In this document: piece by piece, positions 45,075 to 53,146 of the stretch | Numbering within the stretch: position 1 is the first letter of the stretch | Layout: each line of letters opens with the position of its first letter | Assembly: GCA_021795965.1 (NCBI GenBank) | Contig: JAJYOU010000001.1 | Span: 62,001 to 126,000 of the forward strand | Reading direction: 5' to 3' | DNA: 64,000 bases | Source: Chloroflexota bacterium | GTDB taxonomy: Bacteria > Chloroflexota > Anaerolineae > Anaerolineales > Villigracilaceae | The notes under the pieces: generated by a model | What the model was told of the DNA's origin: nothing | What the model saw: the letters and a program-made list of their open reading frames with translations, nothing else | Database searches by the model: none | Program-made: the position numbers and the translations under genes

Positions 45075-45102
45075 TTGACACATTTCATCCGGGTGGTAAA
45101 AT
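45075..45102 (+). promoter_or_regulatory. Promoter of the argG leader
   Basis: TTGACA (45075-45080), 16-bp spacer, TAAAAT (45097-45102). Confidence 0.75.
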
Positions 45103-45112
45103 AGCCGACTAT

Positions 45113-45208
45113 ATGTTCAATTTGGTGATTATTCTCCGTGCACGTCGTCCGTATTTCTCTGCCGTCTTTGAAGGTCAGGGTAGTTCATCGTGGATGACGA
45201 GCCAGTGA
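45113..45208 (+). CDS. Putative arginine leader peptide, 31 aa (not in ORF track)
   Basis: ATG TTC AAT TTG GTG ATT ATT CTC CGT GCA CGT CGT CCG ... CAG TGA = MFNLVIILRARRPYFSAVFEGQGSSSWMTSQ; three Arg codons in four (CGT GCA CGT CGT); about 10 nt after the -10; followed by a terminator and argG. Confidence 0.65.
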   Translation: MFNLVIILRARRPYFSAVFEGQGSSSWMTSQ

Positions 45209-45266
45209 AATAACCGGCTCAAGCGTAAACCAGGCGACCCTCCTTCTTTGGTGGGTCGCTTTTTTT
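45143..45266 (+). promoter_or_regulatory. argG attenuator: alternative stems and intrinsic terminator
   Basis: CGTCGTCC(45143-45150)/GGATGACG(45192-45199); GAGCC(45199-45203)/GGCTC(45216-45220); terminator GCGACCC-tccttctttggt-GGGTCGC + TTTTTTT (45234-45266). Confidence 0.65.
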
Positions 45267-45290
45267 AATTATTTTTTCTAAGGAGATGTT

Positions 45291-46562
45291 ATGAATACAA
45301 AGCAAAAAACGCAGGTAAAGAAAGTTGTTCTGGCATATTCAGGGGGACTGGATACATCGGTGATCGTGCCCTGGCTCAAGGAAAATTATGGCTGCGAAGT
45401 CATCTGCTTTTGCGCCAACGTCGGACAGGGAGACGAAGACCTGACCCTGCTGGAAAAGAAAGCCATCCAGAGCGGCGCCAGCAAATTGATCACGCATGAC
45501 ATGCGCGAAGAATTTGCGTCAGATTATCTATTTCCAATGCTTAAATCAGGAGCGGTTTACGAGCACAAGTACCTGCTGGGCACATCCATCGCCCGCCCGT
45601 TGATCGCCAAACACCTGGTGGATGTTGCACACCAGGAAGGCGCGGATGCAATCGCTCACGGCGCCACTGGTAAAGGGAATGACCAGGTCCGCTTTGAGCT
45701 GACGGTAATGGCACTTGACCCGCGCCTGAAAATCATCGCGCCCTGGCGGGAATGGGACATCCGCTCCCGCGAGGATGCGATTGCTTATGCAGCCAAGCAC
45801 AATGTCCCGGTCACTGCAACCATCAAATCAATTTACAGCCGAGATTCCAATTTATGGCACATATCGCATGAAGGCGGGCTGCTCGAAAATCCATGGAACG
45901 AACCCGAGGAATCCATGTACCAGATGAGCACCTCGCCCGAAAACGCCCCTGAAGAAGGGGAGTACCTCACGATTGATTTCGTGACAGGCAACCCGGTGGC
46001 AGTCAATGGTGAAAAACTTTCACCTGCCAAATTGATTGAGCGCTTGAATGCCATTGGCGGCAATCACGGCATTGGCAGGGTGGACCTAGTAGAAAACCGA
46101 CTTGTCGGCATGAAATCTCACGGCGTTTACGAAACCCCCGGTGGAACCATCCTTCTTTTTTCTCACCGCGACCTCGAATCGCTCGTTCTCGACCGCGATA
46201 CCAGCCATTTTAAAGAAATCGTCGCAGTGAAATACACCGAACTGGTTTACAACGGTCAATGGTTCACCCCATTGAGGGAAGCCATTGATGCATTTGTCAA
46301 TTCGACCCAAGGACCTGTGACCGGCACGGTACGGCTCAAGCTGTATAAGGGCAACATCATCTCTGCCGGCAGGGAATCCAAATTTTCACTTTACCGCGAA
46401 GATTTTGCCACCTTTGGTGAAGAAGATGTATACGACCAGAGCCAGGCAGAGGGTTTCATTCGCCTGTTTGGCTTGAGCATGAAGGTCCGCGCTCTCAATG
46501 GACTGCCAGTTTCGGGGCTGGACATGCCTCAGCCTGATTACAGCCGATTCAAGAGAGATTAA
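45291..46562 (+). CDS. argG: Argininosuccinate synthase
   Basis: [42 protein letters not shown] ribosome-binding context. Confidence 0.95.
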
Positions 46563-46564
46563 TC

Positions 46565-47938
46565 ATGACACTATGGGGCGGCCGCTTCAGCGGCAAACTT
46601 GAAGAAAACGCCTGGAACCTGAATACATCCTTGCCTGTGGACAAACGGATGGCGATTCAGGATGTGGATGGCAGCCTGGCTTGGGCAGCCGCCCTGGTTC
46701 AATCCGGTATTTTAACCGGGGAGGAGTATGAGCAAATCTGCAACGGTCTGACGGTGATCAAACAAGAATTCAGCGAGCAGAATTTTCTTTTCATGGATGG
46801 AGATGAAGATATTCACAGCGCGGTGGAAAGGCGGCTGACCGAACTCGTTGGAGATGCCGCCCGGAAACTTCACACTGGTCGCAGCCGGAATGACCAGGTC
46901 TCGACCGATTTTCGGCTGTGGATGATGGCTGCCAGACCAAGGCTGATCAGTCAAATCAAACTTGTTCAGCTCAGTCTCCTGGAAAAGGCGGAAAACGCCG
47001 GCGAAACCTACATGCCTGGATATACCCATCTGCAACGCGCGCAACCGGTCCTGCTGGCGCACTGGTGGATGAGCCATTTTTGGCCACTGGCACGCGATGT
47101 GGAACGGCTGGATTCCCTCGAAAAACGCATCTCCATATTGCCGCTCGGCTGCGGTGCCCTGGCTGGCACGAGCCTGGATGTGGACCGGGAAGCCTTGGCC
47201 GAAAAGCTTGGTTTTGAGAAAGCTGCCCCCAACAGCATGGACTCGGTCTCTGACCGGGATTTTGCGGCTGAATTTCTCTTTTGTGCCTCAATGATTGGCA
47301 TCCACCTCAGCAAACTTGCCGAACAAATGGTTTTGTTCAACAGCTCGGAATTCGGTTTTTTTGAATTATCCGACGAATATTCGACCGGCTCAAGCTTGAT
47401 GCCGCAGAAAAAGAACCCGGACACATTTGAATTGACGCGGGGAAAATCCGGAGTCTTGATCGGTCTGCTGACAGGTTTGCTGACCACGTTGAAGGGTTTG
47501 CCATCCACCTACGATAAGGATTTACAGGAAGACAAAGCCCCAGTCTTCGCCGCTTACGACACTCTCATGCTGCTCTTACCCGTGCTGGCAGGCGGAATTC
47601 GGACCGTCAGCGCGAAGACCAAAAGGATGGAAGGAGCGGTCGATTCATTCATGATGGCGACCGACCTGGCGGATTACCTGGTGGATCGAGGTATTCCTTT
47701 CAGGGAAACCCATTCCATCGTCGGGAAAGCCGTCCGGATGGCAATTGAGCTGGGCAGCGGTCTGGATGGATTGACATTGGATCAGTACAAAAGCATTCAT
47801 CCAGCATTTGAGCCCGACCTATATCAAGCCCTTAATCCTTTGGAATCGATCAGGAAAAGGAAAGCCCTGGGGGGCACCGCACCTGAAGCGGTTCAATATC
47901 AAATTCAACAAGCTCGATCATCTCTTAAAGGAGAGTAA
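46565..47938 (+). CDS. argH: Argininosuccinate lyase
   Basis: LWGGRFSGKLEE, HTGRSRNDQVSTDFRLW, GSSLMPQKKNPD. Confidence 0.95.
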   Translation: MTLWGGRFSGKLEENAWNLNTSLPVDKRMAIQDVDGSLAWAAALVQSGILTGEEYEQICNGLTVIKQEFSEQNFLFMDGDEDIHSAVERRLTELVGDAARKLHTGRSRNDQVSTDFRLWMMAARPRLISQIKLVQLSLLEKAENAGETYMPGYTHLQRAQPVLLAHWWMSHFWPLARDVERLDSLEKRISILPLGCGALAGTSLDVDREALAEKLGFEKAAPNSMDSVSDRDFAAEFLFCASMIGIHLSKLAEQMVLFNSSEFGFFELSDEYSTGSSLMPQKKNPDTFELTRGKSGVLIGLLTGLLTTLKGLPSTYDKDLQEDKAPVFAAYDTLMLLLPVLAGGIRTVSAKTKRMEGAVDSFMMATDLADYLVDRGIPFRETHSIVGKAVRMAIELGSGLDGLTLDQYKSIHPAFEPDLYQALNPLESIRKRKALGGTAPEAVQYQIQQARSSLKGE

Positions 47939-47942
47939 AACC

Positions 47943-48113
47943 ATGCTCAACGCAAATTGTCCCGAATGTGATGCGGATATCACCCTTGACCCAAGTGCAG
48001 AAGTGGGTGAAATCATCGTTTGCCCCGATTGTGGAGTGGATCTTGAAATAATCTCGCTCAACCCAGTAAAAATTGATCTCGCCCCAATGGAACAGGAAGA
48101 CTGGGGAGAATAG
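47943..48113 (+). CDS. lysW: LysW-type amino-group carrier protein
   Basis: MLNANCPECDADITLDPSAEVGEIIVCPDCGVDLEI...EDWGE; two CxxC pairs and C-terminal EDWGE. True ATG at 47943. Confidence 0.92.
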   Translation: MLNANCPECDADITLDPSAEVGEIIVCPDCGVDLEIISLNPVKIDLAPMEQEDWGE

Positions 48114-48134: not shown

Positions 48135-49013
48135 ATGACAAAAAGATTGAAAATCGGCGTGCTTTACTCACGTGTGCGCGTGGAGGAAAAGTGGATATTT
48201 TCTGCGATGGAAAAACGCGGCATCGATTACGAGCGGCTGGATGACCGGGTCATTACTTTTGATCTTGAAAATCCGGCTCCATGGCAGACATTCGACGCCG
48301 TGCTGGAGAGGAGCATCAGTTTCAACAGCGGTTTATATGCCCTCAGAATTTTAAATGCCTTTGGCGTGCCGACCGTGAACAAAGCGTCGGTGGCGGAGAT
48401 TTGCGGCGATAAATTGACGACGAGCACGATGCTGGCGAAAGCCAAGGTCCCCCAACCGCGCAACATGGTGGCATTCTCGACGGAGGCAGCCCTGGAAGCG
48501 ATTGAAAGCTTTGGTTACCCGGTGGTGCTTAAACCGGTGGTTGGTTCCTGGGGTAGACTGCTCGCCAAGATCAATGACCGGGACGCGGCTGAAGCTGTGC
48601 TGGAACATAAAGCCACGCTGGGTTCCGCCCAGCATTCGGTTTTTTACATCCAGGAATACATCCAAAAACCGGGCAGGGATATTCGCGCGATCGTGGTGGG
48701 CGGAAACGTGCTGACTGCCATCTATCGCAAGTCTGAACATTGGATCACCAACACCGCGCGGGGAGGAGAAGGGGAAATCTGCCCGATCACCCCGGAAATT
48801 GAAGCCCTCTGTCTGAACGCGGCAAGCGCTGTGGGAGGGGGTGTGCTGGCAGTGGACCTGGTGGAACATCCTGAAAAGGGCTTGATGGTCAATGAAATCA
48901 ACCACACGATGGAATTTCACACTGCACAGCCGATCAGCGGGGTGGATATCGCTGATGAAATCGTATCTTACGTGATGAATGAAGCTCGAAAAGGTCATCA
49001 TGGCAAGGAGTAA
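48135..49013 (+). CDS. LysX/ArgX-type ATP-grasp ligase (LysW-glutamate or LysW-aminoadipate ligase)
   Basis: RimK-like ATP-grasp; [59 protein letters not shown]. Confidence 0.88.
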
Positions 49014-49019
49014 GATTCT

Positions 49020-50054
49020 ATGACAACCGTTTCCATCATCGGTGGTTCAGGGTACGGCGGCGGGGAACTGCTGCGCCTGCTGCTCAGCCATCCAAACGTC
49101 GAAGTAAAGCAGGCGACATCCCGCAGCCACCTGGGAGAGTATGTTTACCAGGTCCATCCCAACCTGCGCAAACGAACACAGATCAAATTTAGCGACCCGT
49201 TCAACCTGGAGACGGTTGATGTGCTCTTTCTAGCCCAACCGCATGGGCAGGCACAGCACAACATCGAGCAGCTGGTCCCACTGGCGGACAAAATCATTGA
49301 TCTCTCGGCAGATTTTCGCCTGCGAAGCGCAGAAGATTACCAAAAATGGTATGGTGAACCGCATGCGGCGCCCGGTTGGCTGGAAAAGTTTGTTTACGGA
49401 CTGCCTGAACTGCACCGAGGGGAAATTGCCGGCGCCAGGTACGTGAGCGGGGTGGGCTGCAACGCCACAGCGAGCAACCTTGCCCTGCTACCCCTGGTCA
49501 AAGCGGGTCTGATTGATTTATCGGCACCAGTGATCGTTGAAATCAAGCTGGGATCGTCAGAATCCGGAGTAGAAGGCAACACCGGATCCCTGCATGCAGA
49601 ACGAGCCAACGTCATCCGGACTTTTTCGGCTTTTGGGCACAGGCACACCGCGGAAGTGATGCAGGAGCTCGGATTAACCGATATCTCCCTGACCATGACC
49701 GCAGTTGACCTGGTGAGAGGGGTGCTCGCGACCGCCCACGCCAGGGTCAAGCCAGGAGTGGGTCAAAAAGATTTATGGAAGGCATACCGCGCGGTTGCAA
49801 CCGAAAATCCATTCGTGCGAGTGGTCAAGGAACAACGCGGCATTTACCGCGTACCTGAGCCGAAGATCCTTTCAGGGTCCAATTACGCCGATATTGGCTT
49901 TGATCTGGATGAGAGCAACGGGCATGTGGTTTCGATGTGCGCCATTGACAACCTGATGAAAGGCGCTGCGGGGACCGCAGTCCAATGCATGAACTTGATG
50001 CTCGGATTGGATGAAACCACGGGGCTGGAATTTGCCGGGTTACACCCTCTTTAA
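49020..50054 (+). CDS. argC: N-acetyl/[LysW]-glutamyl-phosphate reductase
   Basis: IIGGSGYGGGELLRLLLSHP, YVSGVGCNATASNLALLPLVKAGL, GHRHTAEVMQEL. Confidence 0.9.
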   Translation: MTTVSIIGGSGYGGGELLRLLLSHPNVEVKQATSRSHLGEYVYQVHPNLRKRTQIKFSDPFNLETVDVLFLAQPHGQAQHNIEQLVPLADKIIDLSADFRLRSAEDYQKWYGEPHAAPGWLEKFVYGLPELHRGEIAGARYVSGVGCNATASNLALLPLVKAGLIDLSAPVIVEIKLGSSESGVEGNTGSLHAERANVIRTFSAFGHRHTAEVMQELGLTDISLTMTAVDLVRGVLATAHARVKPGVGQKDLWKAYRAVATENPFVRVVKEQRGIYRVPEPKILSGSNYADIGFDLDESNGHVVSMCAIDNLMKGAAGTAVQCMNLMLGLDETTGLEFAGLHPL

Positions 50055-50069
50055 CCTTTTGGAGTGAAA

Positions 50070-50885
50070 ATGACTGGTTCGCTGATTGTGGTCAAGCTGG
50101 GCGGCACTGAAGGGGTGGATTTTTCGGCAATCTGCGCTGACGCCGCTGAAATCATCAAAACAGGTCAGAAACTGGTCCTGGTTCATGGCGGTTCGGCAGA
50201 GGCGAATGCCCTGGGTGAGGCAATGGGGATGCCCCCGCGCTTTATCACATCACCATCAGGCTACACCTCGCGCTATACCGACCGGAAAACGCTGGAAATC
50301 TTCCTGATGGCGGTCAACGGCAAGGTCAATTCGCTGCTGGTGGAACAGTTGCAGATGCTGGGAGTGAATGCCTTCGGATTGAGCGGATTGGACGGAAGAG
50401 TGTTGCGGGCAACCCGAAAGGATGCCATCCAGAGCGTTGAAAACGGAAAACGCAGGATGATCCGGGATGACTACACTGGCAAAATTGAGGAAGTCAACCA
50501 GGAGCTCCTGACAACCCTGCTTGATGCAGGGTATTTGCCGGTGATTGCACCCGTGGCAGTCAGCATGAATGGGGAAGCTTTAAATGTCGACGCTGACCGC
50601 GCCGCAGCCATGATTGCCGCCGCGCTGAAGGCTGAAAGCCTCGTTTTACTGACCGCAGTTGCGGGATTAATGAAATACTTCCCGGATGAGAACAGCCTGA
50701 TCAGGCAACTTCCACAGTCGCAGCTCGCTTCAGCGCTGGAAGCCGCCCAGGGAAGGATGAAGAAAAAAATCCTGGGAGCCGAGGAAGCTCTCAAGGGTGG
50801 GGTTGGACAGGTCATCATCGCCGATGGACGAATCCAGAACCCAATCTCCACAGCACTTAAGGGAAATGGAACCGTGATCCAATGA
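50070..50885 (+). CDS. argB: Acetylglutamate/[LysW]-aminoadipate kinase family
   Basis: LIVVKLGGTEGVDF, LVLVHGGSAEANALGEAMG, NVDADRAAAMIAAAL. Confidence 0.9.
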   Translation: MTGSLIVVKLGGTEGVDFSAICADAAEIIKTGQKLVLVHGGSAEANALGEAMGMPPRFITSPSGYTSRYTDRKTLEIFLMAVNGKVNSLLVEQLQMLGVNAFGLSGLDGRVLRATRKDAIQSVENGKRRMIRDDYTGKIEEVNQELLTTLLDAGYLPVIAPVAVSMNGEALNVDADRAAAMIAAALKAESLVLLTAVAGLMKYFPDENSLIRQLPQSQLASALEAAQGRMKKKILGAEEALKGGVGQVIIADGRIQNPISTALKGNGTVIQ

Positions 50886-52066
50886 ACGCAGACCAAATCA
50901 TTGAAACTGAATCCAGGCACACCTCGGGGCTGTATACCAAACAGCCGATTATCTTCGTGCGCGGCAGCGGAGCCTCCCTCTTTGATATCAACGACGTTGA
51001 ATACCTGGACTGCAATTCGGGTCATGGGGTTGCCAACCTGGGTCATGCCCACCCGAAGGTGGCAGCCGCTATCGCTGCTCAATCCACCCGGCTGATGACG
51101 CTGTTTGAAACTTTTTACAACGACCAACGGGCTGAACTGATGAACCTGATGGGAAATTTTCTGCCAGGAATGGAAAGGGTATTCTTTTGTAACTCGGGGA
51201 CCGAATCCGTTGAAGCAGCGATCAAATTCTCACGAATCTCGAGCGGCAGATCCGAGGTGGTTGCTGCCATGCGGGGATTCCACGGCAGGACGATGGGCTC
51301 GCTTTCAGCCACACATAACAAAAAATACCGGGAAGGATTCGAACCGCTCGTGCCCGGTTTCAACCATGTCCCTTTTAACAATATCGAAGCACTCGAGAAA
51401 GCCATCACGAGTGAGACTGCTGCTCTCATCCTGGAAGTGGTCCAGGGCGAAGGAGGCGTGTATGTGGCAGACCAGGCTTACGTGCAGGCTGCCCGCCGAA
51501 TTTGCGATGAACACGGGACGCTCTTGATCATCGACGAAGTACAAAGCGGATTTGGGCGGACGGGAAAATTATTCGCAATCCAGCATTATGACGTGATGCC
51601 TGATTTATTGTGCTGCGCGAAATCGCTGGCAGGCGGGGTTCCGATGGGAGCCGTGTTGATCGGGTCGAAAGTATCGAACCTCAACCCGGGAGCGCACGGA
51701 TCAACCTTCGGCGGGAATCCACTTGCCTGTGCGGCGGCAGTTGCAGCGCTGACCGCCATCCGCGAAGAAAACCTGGCAGAAGAGGCAGAGCGAAAAGGGA
51801 AATACCTGATCGCCAAACTTCAAGCCATCCATTCCCCGCTCATAAGGGAAGTGCGCGGTTTGGGGTTGATGGTGGGGATTGAACTCAAACAAAAAGTCCA
51901 ACCCTACCTGAAGGCGCTCCAGGAAAAACATGTTTTGGCTTTAAGCGCCGGACTTGTGACCATACGCCTGCTGCCGCCACTCGTGATCACGTATGCACAA
52001 ATCGACCACCTGGTGGAAGTGCTTGAAGAAGTGCTCGTTGGTGGAACTGCAGGCTTTGGCGAGTAA
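50882..52066 (+). CDS. argD: Acetylornithine/[LysW]-ornithine (lysine) aminotransferase
   Basis: Class III aminotransferase; FCNSGTESVEAAIKFSR, LLIIDEVQSGFGRTGKLFA, CCAKSLAGGVPMGAV. Confidence 0.92.
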   Translation: MNADQIIETESRHTSGLYTKQPIIFVRGSGASLFDINDVEYLDCNSGHGVANLGHAHPKVAAAIAAQSTRLMTLFETFYNDQRAELMNLMGNFLPGMERVFFCNSGTESVEAAIKFSRISSGRSEVVAAMRGFHGRTMGSLSATHNKKYREGFEPLVPGFNHVPFNNIEALEKAITSETAALILEVVQGEGGVYVADQAYVQAARRICDEHGTLLIIDEVQSGFGRTGKLFAIQHYDVMPDLLCCAKSLAGGVPMGAVLIGSKVSNLNPGAHGSTFGGNPLACAAAVAALTAIREENLAEEAERKGKYLIAKLQAIHSPLIREVRGLGLMVGIELKQKVQPYLKALQEKHVLALSAGLVTIRLLPPLVITYAQIDHLVEVLEEVLVGGTAGFGE

Positions 52067-52093: not shown

Positions 52094-53146
52094 ATGGAAT
52101 TTGAGCCTGCAACACTGACGGGATTGGTCTCCCATTACAGCCCCTCGGGAAGCGAAGGCGCGGCAGTCGAATGGCTGGTTTCGCGTTTTAATGCGCTTGG
52201 CTATACGCAATTCAAAAAAGACTCCGCCGGCAACGCGGTTGGAATCATGGGCTCTGGACCAAGGCAAATCATCCTGCTCGGGCACATTGATACGGTACCG
52301 GGAGAAATCCCTGTGCATGTGGTGGAAAACGTGCTTTATGGGCGTGGAACGGTGGATGCAAAAGCTGCGCTTTCATGTTTCGTGGATGCGGTCGCCCGAA
52401 CGGGTATTTTGGAAGGCTGGCAGCTGGTGGTAATAGGCGCGGTTGAAGAGGAACGGGATTCAGACGGTGCGCGATATATCGCAAATCAATATCGACCCGA
52501 TTATGCGATCATCGGCGAACCGAACCGCTGGGATCGAATTGGACTGGGCTACAAGGGCAGTGCCTGGGTAAATTTGACCATGCGCAAAGCACAATTCCAT
52601 TCCGCACAGGCAGATAAATCAGCCTGCGAGAGCGCGGTCAACTTGTGGGTGAAAGCCAAACAGTTCGGGGAGGAATACAATTCCAGCCGCCCGAAGATGT
52701 TTGATCAGCTGCATCTAACCCTCCAGGAAATGGAATCTGGCACAGAAGGTTTTGAGCAGTGGGCAAGGCTCAGGATTGGGGCGCGGCTGCCAGTTGACAT
52801 TCCGCCGCAAAAATGGTTCGAGATATTAAGCGGCATCGCTGCGGGCAGCAAGGTGGAGCTGCGCGGCTACCCGATCCCAGCCTGGACCTGTGAGAAGAAT
52901 ACTGCGGTTGTGCGGGCATTGTTGAGCGCCATTCGCCGGGCGGGAGGCACGCCAAGCTTTGTGTATAAATCGGGAACGGCTGATTTGAACATCGTCGCAC
53001 CCAGCTGGGGCTGCCCGGCAGCGGTCTATGGACCGGGCGATTCGAGCCTGGACCATACGCCAAACGAATGTATTGACCTGGGGGAATACCGGAAAGCCGT
53101 CGAGTGCCTGGCTGACGCACTCATGACGCTGTGCAAAAATGGGTGA
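52094..53146 (+). CDS. [LysW]-ornithine/lysine hydrolase, M20 peptidase family
   Basis: IILLGHIDTVPGEIPV, LYGRGTVDAKAALSCF, IGAVEEERDSDGARY, IIGEPNRWDRIGLGYKG; LysK/ArgE-like. ATG at 52094 preceded by GGTGGAGAG. Confidence 0.9.
   Translation: MEFEPATLTGLVSHYSPSGSEGAAVEWLVSRFNALGYTQFKKDSAGNAVGIMGSGPRQIILLGHIDTVPGEIPVHVVENVLYGRGTVDAKAALSCFVDAVARTGILEGWQLVVIGAVEEERDSDGARYIANQYRPDYAIIGEPNRWDRIGLGYKGSAWVNLTMRKAQFHSAQADKSACESAVNLWVKAKQFGEEYNSSRPKMFDQLHLTLQEMESGTEGFEQWARLRIGARLPVDIPPQKWFEILSGIAAGSKVELRGYPIPAWTCEKNTAVVRALLSAIRRAGGTPSFVYKSGTADLNIVAPSWGCPAAVYGPGDSSLDHTPNECIDLGEYRKAVECLADALMTLCKNG

Follow-up and report, generated by a model that had tools for sequence, protein, structure and literature searches.

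A probable arginine-sensing leader-peptide attenuator ahead of the argG-lysW operon in Anaerolineae

Control of arginine synthesis is usually attributed to the ArgR/AhrC repressor or to T-boxes, and the amino-acid operons associated with ribosome-mediated attenuators form a limited set (trp, his, leu, ilv, thr and phe). In the window, by which we mean the whole 64,000-nucleotide stretch of DNA analyzed here, an arginine operon is preceded by a promoter, a short open reading frame (ORF) with closely spaced Arg codons and an intrinsic terminator, which an initial annotation had read as an arginine leader-peptide attenuator. The locus therefore raises the question of whether entry into the operon is set by the supply of charged tRNA-Arg. 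We consider it very probable, based on comparison of the sequences, that the site is a ribosome-mediated transcription attenuator sensing charged tRNA-Arg; the earlier reading now has strong comparative support from 75 of 75 leaders and from covariation in both the antiterminator and the terminator.

The leader region and its operon

The promoter, the 31-codon ORF with its CGT GCA CGT CGT codons, the terminator and argG are all present where the initial annotation had placed them (Table 1), and the downstream genes are homologs of argG, argH, lysW, lysX, argC, argB, argD and argE, as the designation argG-LysW operon had implied. The promoter matches 11 of 12 consensus positions and was the top site in a scan that returned 5 promoter-like sites against 1.6 expected. 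Because the leader AUG lies 10 nt past the -10 hexamer, ordinary start-site spacing would have the transcript begin about 3-5 nt before the AUG, at a predicted position of approximately 45108-45110; with this promoter, transcription would not be expected to begin 3' of the AUG.

The terminator lies between the leader ORF and the first gene, argG, as in a ribosome-mediated transcription attenuator. The gap from its U-tract to argG is 24 nt and contains the argG Shine-Dalgarno sequence, which leaves no space for a separate promoter 3' of the terminator, and consequently argG transcription from the promoter upstream of the leader must cross the terminator. When positions 45108-45272 were folded, none of 200 shuffles was equally stable (z = -3.2); this stability comes mostly from the terminator, and the segment 5' of the terminator alone showed no unusual stability against shuffles (z 0.03).

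Table 1. Positions of the leader elements and operon genes in the window
Feature	Position	Strand	Remarks
Sigma-70-type promoter TTGACA-16-TAAAAT	45075..45102	+	TTGACA 45075-45080, TAAAAT 45097-45102
Leader-peptide ORF, 31 codons + stop	45113..45208	+	MFNLVIILRARRPYFSAVFEGQGSSSWMTSQ; no Shine-Dalgarno, near-leaderless (predicted)
Regulatory codons CGT GCA CGT CGT (R-A-R-R)	45137..45148	+	CGT 45137-45139; CGT CGT 45143-45148
Strand 1 of 1:2 structure	45143..45150	+	CGTCGTCC; overlaps Arg codons
Strand 2, antiterminator 5' strand	45170..45181	+	GAAGGucAGGGU (= GAAGGtcAGGGT)
Closing strand of 1:2 structure	45192..45199	+	GGATGACG; complementary to CGTCGTCC
Hairpin GAGCC...GGCTC	45199..45220	+	GAGCC 45199-45203, GGCTC 45216-45220; in both conformations
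Intrinsic terminator (3:4) + U-tract	45233..45266	+	hairpin within 45233-45260, -18.7 kcal/mol; U-tract 45260-45266
Strand 3, antiterminator 3' strand	45237..45246	+	ACCCUCCUUC (= ACCCTCCTTC); part of terminator 5' arm
argG Shine-Dalgarno AAGGAG	45280..45285	+	14 nt 3' of U-tract
argG, argininosuccinate synthase	45291..46562	+	ATG 45291
argH, argininosuccinate lyase	46565..47938	+	
lysW carrier protein	47940..48113	+	
lysX/argX ligase	48135..49013	+	
argC/lysY reductase	49020..50054	+	
argB/lysZ kinase	50064..50885	+	
argD/lysJ aminotransferase	50882..52066	+	
argE/lysK hydrolase	52094..53146	+	

Conservation of the leader within the family

A close argG was found in 80 of the 152 genomes of the window's family, and its upstream region was readable in 75. 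All 75 regions carry a TTGACW promoter, an AUG, Arg codons and an intrinsic terminator, so the promoter-ORF-terminator-argG order originally described for the window holds throughout; the named records among these relatives are Anaerolineae/Anaerolineales. Conservation in every readable region puts the arrangement beyond chance, with the 75 leaders to be taken as one homologous group and not as 75 independent cases. Separately, the 72 of 152 genomes of this family (f1) without a close argG match include G142 and G136, each a single contig and 99% complete; such genomes may have lost the ability to make arginine or may encode a divergent enzyme.

The -10 box ends 10 nt 5' of the AUG in 64 of the 75 leaders and 8 nt 5' of it in another 8 (72 together), and a Shine-Dalgarno-like site upstream of the leader AUG was found in none of them. 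Judged from this -10-to-AUG spacing of the predicted promoter, the leader transcript is presumably near-leaderless. The distance from the AUG to the Arg-Arg pair is 27, 30, 36, 39 or 42 nt among the 75 relatives, always a multiple of 3, and the variation ahead of the pair is greatest at third codon positions. Neighboring residues vary, and yet the first Arg of the pair is kept in 75 of 75 leaders, the second in 74 of 75 and the upstream Arg in 73 of 75; the conserved ORF and Arg codons that had been proposed as a check on orthologous leaders are thus both present in the family, and the regulatory codons match the end product of the operon. CGT accounts for 221 of 246 leader Arg codons as compared to 14.7% of the Arg codons in the 39 long ORFs of the window, which alone served as the reference. 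In one leader (L005), CGT CAT (Arg-His) replaces the second Arg of the pair.

A riboswitch or an RNA-binding-protein attenuator in which the ORF is incidental would also be expected to leave a conserved RNA and a terminator at this place, but the ORF shows a coding signature and conservation of its frame. An Rfam search near the site gave no match except a weak chance one on the other strand, which indicates that no T-box or known riboswitch lies at the leader, and ArgR (PF01316) was not found above the cut-off in 61 sampled family genomes when 8 of 14 control genomes were positive (the genome that contains the window has a completeness of only 62%). We therefore regard this explanation as very unlikely, and return to attenuation by a stalled ribosome.

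Competing structures and the computed effect of a stalled ribosome

The helix that competes with the terminator pairs GAAGG-N2-GGG, within the ORF, with CCC-N-CCTTC in the 5' arm of the terminator. In the window 45170-45174 pair with 45242-45246 and 45177-45181 with 45237-45241, so that antiterminator and terminator exclude one another. Across 74 leaders 96.1% of the cells of this 2:3 helix are paired, three pairs show two-sided changes, and the covariation score exceeds those of 499 of 500 shuffles and of all slid controls. Each leader's own antiterminator strands pair at -16.2 kcal/mol as compared to -14.9 kcal/mol for swapped partners, with none of 10,000 permutations as good, it being understood that the shuffle and permutation tests leave shared ancestry in. 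For the terminator RNAalifold found two-sided changes in 9 of 11 pairs (74 leaders); over the entire leader it predicted the terminator as the sole structure, as is expected where folds compete.

The 1:2 structure is built from the pairing of CGTCGTCC with GGATGACG, together with a CTTC/GAAG hairpin inside it. Its main pairing agrees with the earlier proposal that the 5' strand of a stem contains the Arg codons. In relatives 86-87% of its cells are paired and the inner hairpin is stronger than in the window. Of the covarying stems that had been suggested as a check, the terminator and antiterminator do covary (74 leaders), but the 1:2 structure shows no covariation above shuffles in relatives; its strand 1 overlaps the constrained Arg codons. 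The GAGCC/GGCTC pairing that the initial annotation had put forward as the alternative fold turned out to be a separate hairpin, in a region whose length and sequence differ from relative to relative. As it forms in both states and makes no contact with the terminator, freeing it could not cause read-through, and it is ruled out as the antiterminator. The actual switch strand in the predicted folds is strand 2, pairing with strand 3 in the terminator 5' arm.

The effect of a stalled ribosome was simulated by folding the RNA at the emergence of strand 3, with and without the part that a ribosome would cover. Placing the A site at the Arg codons raised the median number of expected 2:3 pairs over the leaders from 0 without a ribosome to 8, and the value for the window from 0.1 to 8.8; depending on which of these codons was occupied, 90-100% of leaders reached at least 5 expected 2:3 pairs. 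When the stall was placed six or more codons downstream of the Arg codons, no leader reached 5 expected pairs. These results indicate that the Arg codons are placed where a stall releases the antiterminator and that a ribosome further on covers it; release of the antiterminator strand by a stall at the regulatory codons, as in the classical mechanism, is thus found by computation. In 18% of leaders the computation favors 2:3 antitermination even without a ribosome, which points to a shortcoming either in the model or in its energy parameters.

A constitutive partial terminator, or a promoter-proximal small RNA, neither responding to arginine, would be compatible with evidence from sequence only; a conserved competing antiterminator with covariation, and Arg codons that match the product of the operon, make such an element highly implausible. 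We instead infer a scheme of ribosome-mediated attenuation to which the comparisons contribute the conserved parts, the coding frame, the Arg codons, the covariation of antiterminator and terminator and the computed switch. Transcription would start 3-5 nt before the AUG and a ribosome would initiate on the nearly leaderless transcript. With ample Arg-tRNA the ribosome would pass the CGT codons and strand 2 would be unavailable, either beneath the ribosome or within the 1:2 structure; the 3:4 terminator would form and transcription would end before argG. With scarce Arg-tRNA the ribosome would stall on CGT-x-CGT-CGT and cover strand 1; the freed strand 2 (45170-45181) would then pair with the emerging 5' arm of the terminator (45237-45246), and the polymerase would read into argG-argH-lysW-lysX-argC-argB-argD-argE. 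All of the defining features of a trp-type attenuator that can be tested on sequence were found; translation of the leader and a rise in read-through when arginine is scarce are predicted.

Known systems, related leaders and breadth

Classical ribosome-mediated attenuators, for instance those of ilvB1 in Mycobacterium tuberculosis (PMC13236596) and of trp and ilvB in Actinobacteria (PMC1262725), likewise combine a leader ORF containing codons of the product, an antiterminator and intrinsic terminator that are mutually exclusive, and a pathway operon downstream. The leader of the window differs in its Arg codons, its predicted near-leaderless start, its occurrence in Chloroflexota and an ORF whose stop lies beyond strand 2. 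The survey of Actinobacteria did not find conserved RNA structures before arginine operons (PMC1262725).

Several other leaders share individual features. The mycobacterial polycysteine attenuators (Canestrari et al. 2020, as cited in PMC9031893) are described in the citing review as leaderless short ORFs that contain a run of codons for a single amino acid and control a downstream operon; as described there they use cysteine and affect downstream translation, as compared to Arg and an intrinsic terminator in the window. The uORFC-8-2 motif before cysS in Rhodobacterales has tandem regulatory codons in its first stem and a 3'-end terminator, but it concerns cysteine, a tRNA synthetase gene and other bacteria (PMC8632094). 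In the Salmonella orf34-speF leader two consecutive Arg codons sense arginine via ribosome pausing; this leader, however, serves polyamine synthesis and acts through Rho-dependent termination, sequestration of the ribosome-binding site and RNase G decay, and an intrinsic terminator is not mentioned in the text of that paper (PMC6386406). The rbfL leader peptide of Staphylococcus aureus also senses arginine limitation, but it represses translation of a biofilm regulator, whose ribosome-binding site it occludes (PMC13009471). In the open-access literature searched we found neither a classical arginine attenuator before arginine genes nor a report of leader-peptide attenuation for Chloroflexota, and the arginine specificity for arginine synthesis, the presumed near-leaderless start and the breadth in Anaerolineae would appear to be new.

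With regard to this breadth, other Anaerolineae families yielded 20 argG upstream regions with a terminator and a scorable short ORF, and in 13 of these the ORF has at least 3 Arg in 5 codons as compared to 1.6 expected from dinucleotide shuffles. The leader peptides outside the family share only the Arg run (RRR, RRRR or RxRR) and are otherwise unrelated, and must thus have diverged strongly or evolved separately. One carrier is cultured: Bellilinea caldifistulae GOMI-1 (f13, L282), of the window's order, has MISISSELRFRRPLTDPFFHGMVGAFGVIQ and then a terminator upstream of argG. Many other Anaerolineae families have no terminator directly before argG, and in a phylum-wide sample of Chloroflexota 36 of 40 argG upstream regions lacked one; besides the Bellilinea caldifistulae leader, whose region was the single one from the window's order, the same sample gave one possible Arg leader before argG, in f80. 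Three terminators were seen in named relatives of argG belonging to Acidobacteria, Clostridia and other phyla, none with an Arg ORF, and in the regions sampled outside Anaerolineae the combination of Arg leader and terminator before argG is thus nearly absent.

The window's own genome carries a second attenuator in which the ORF MLNNSLLLLAVIIVVLIIKVRLSFGLAAERQK is followed by a terminator and then ilvD (G000:C29:14293-14442, reverse strand; L244), a leader of the branched-chain (Leu/Ile/Val) type that matches ilvD. A search of this genome for the promoter-plus-AUG pattern gave 14 matches against 6 in the control, and no further clear attenuator among the forward-strand matches inspected. When the Arg leader was made into a covariance model, this retrieved Arg leaders upstream of argG from families f36 and f48 and also ilvD/ilvB leaders with Leu/Ile/Val runs in relatives, most of the weak R1 matches being antisense or chance. 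The agreement between codon type and operon product (Arg with argG, Leu/Ile/Val with ilv) constitutes a strong internal control.

These comparisons also bear on whether the leader encodes a nascent-chain arrest peptide (L-P-R-T-R-R-P-K-P-T-S in relatives) that stalls on a metabolite such as arginine, ornithine or citrulline, rather than on uncharged tRNA. The peptide context of the Arg codons is conserved within the family, where a Pro before them and a Pro and Thr-Ser after them are also common, but outside the family the Arg run occurs in unrelated contexts, and even within it the reading frame is not maintained 3' of the Arg codons. The ilv relatives bear Leu/Ile/Val runs instead, and stalling stimulated by arginine would increase expression at times of arginine plenty, hardly a sensible response in a biosynthetic operon; we consider an arrest peptide improbable.

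If charged tRNA-Arg is indeed what the leader senses, attenuation would explain how a large group of mostly uncultured bacteria, in which ArgR was not detected, controls arginine synthesis, and a trp-type switch would be possible on near-leaderless transcripts; a searchable model and the cultured Bellilinea caldifistulae are at hand. We speculate, at somewhat less than even confidence, that near-leaderless attenuation tuned to CGU, and hence to one tRNA-Arg isoacceptor, is the family's main arginine control, and that related or repeatedly evolved versions replace ArgR in many Anaerolineae families.

Leader-peptide attenuation seems common in Anaerolineae. Leu/Ile/Val-rich leaders with terminators were observed in other members of the class, before ilvB at L091, L101 and L110 and before ilvD at L111 and L112. 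At L114 (G359:C274) a short ORF, MKAVLVSPRPPEPIHSLSGKAS, and a terminator-like hairpin stand directly before lysW, and the same genome also carries an Arg leader before argG (L090).
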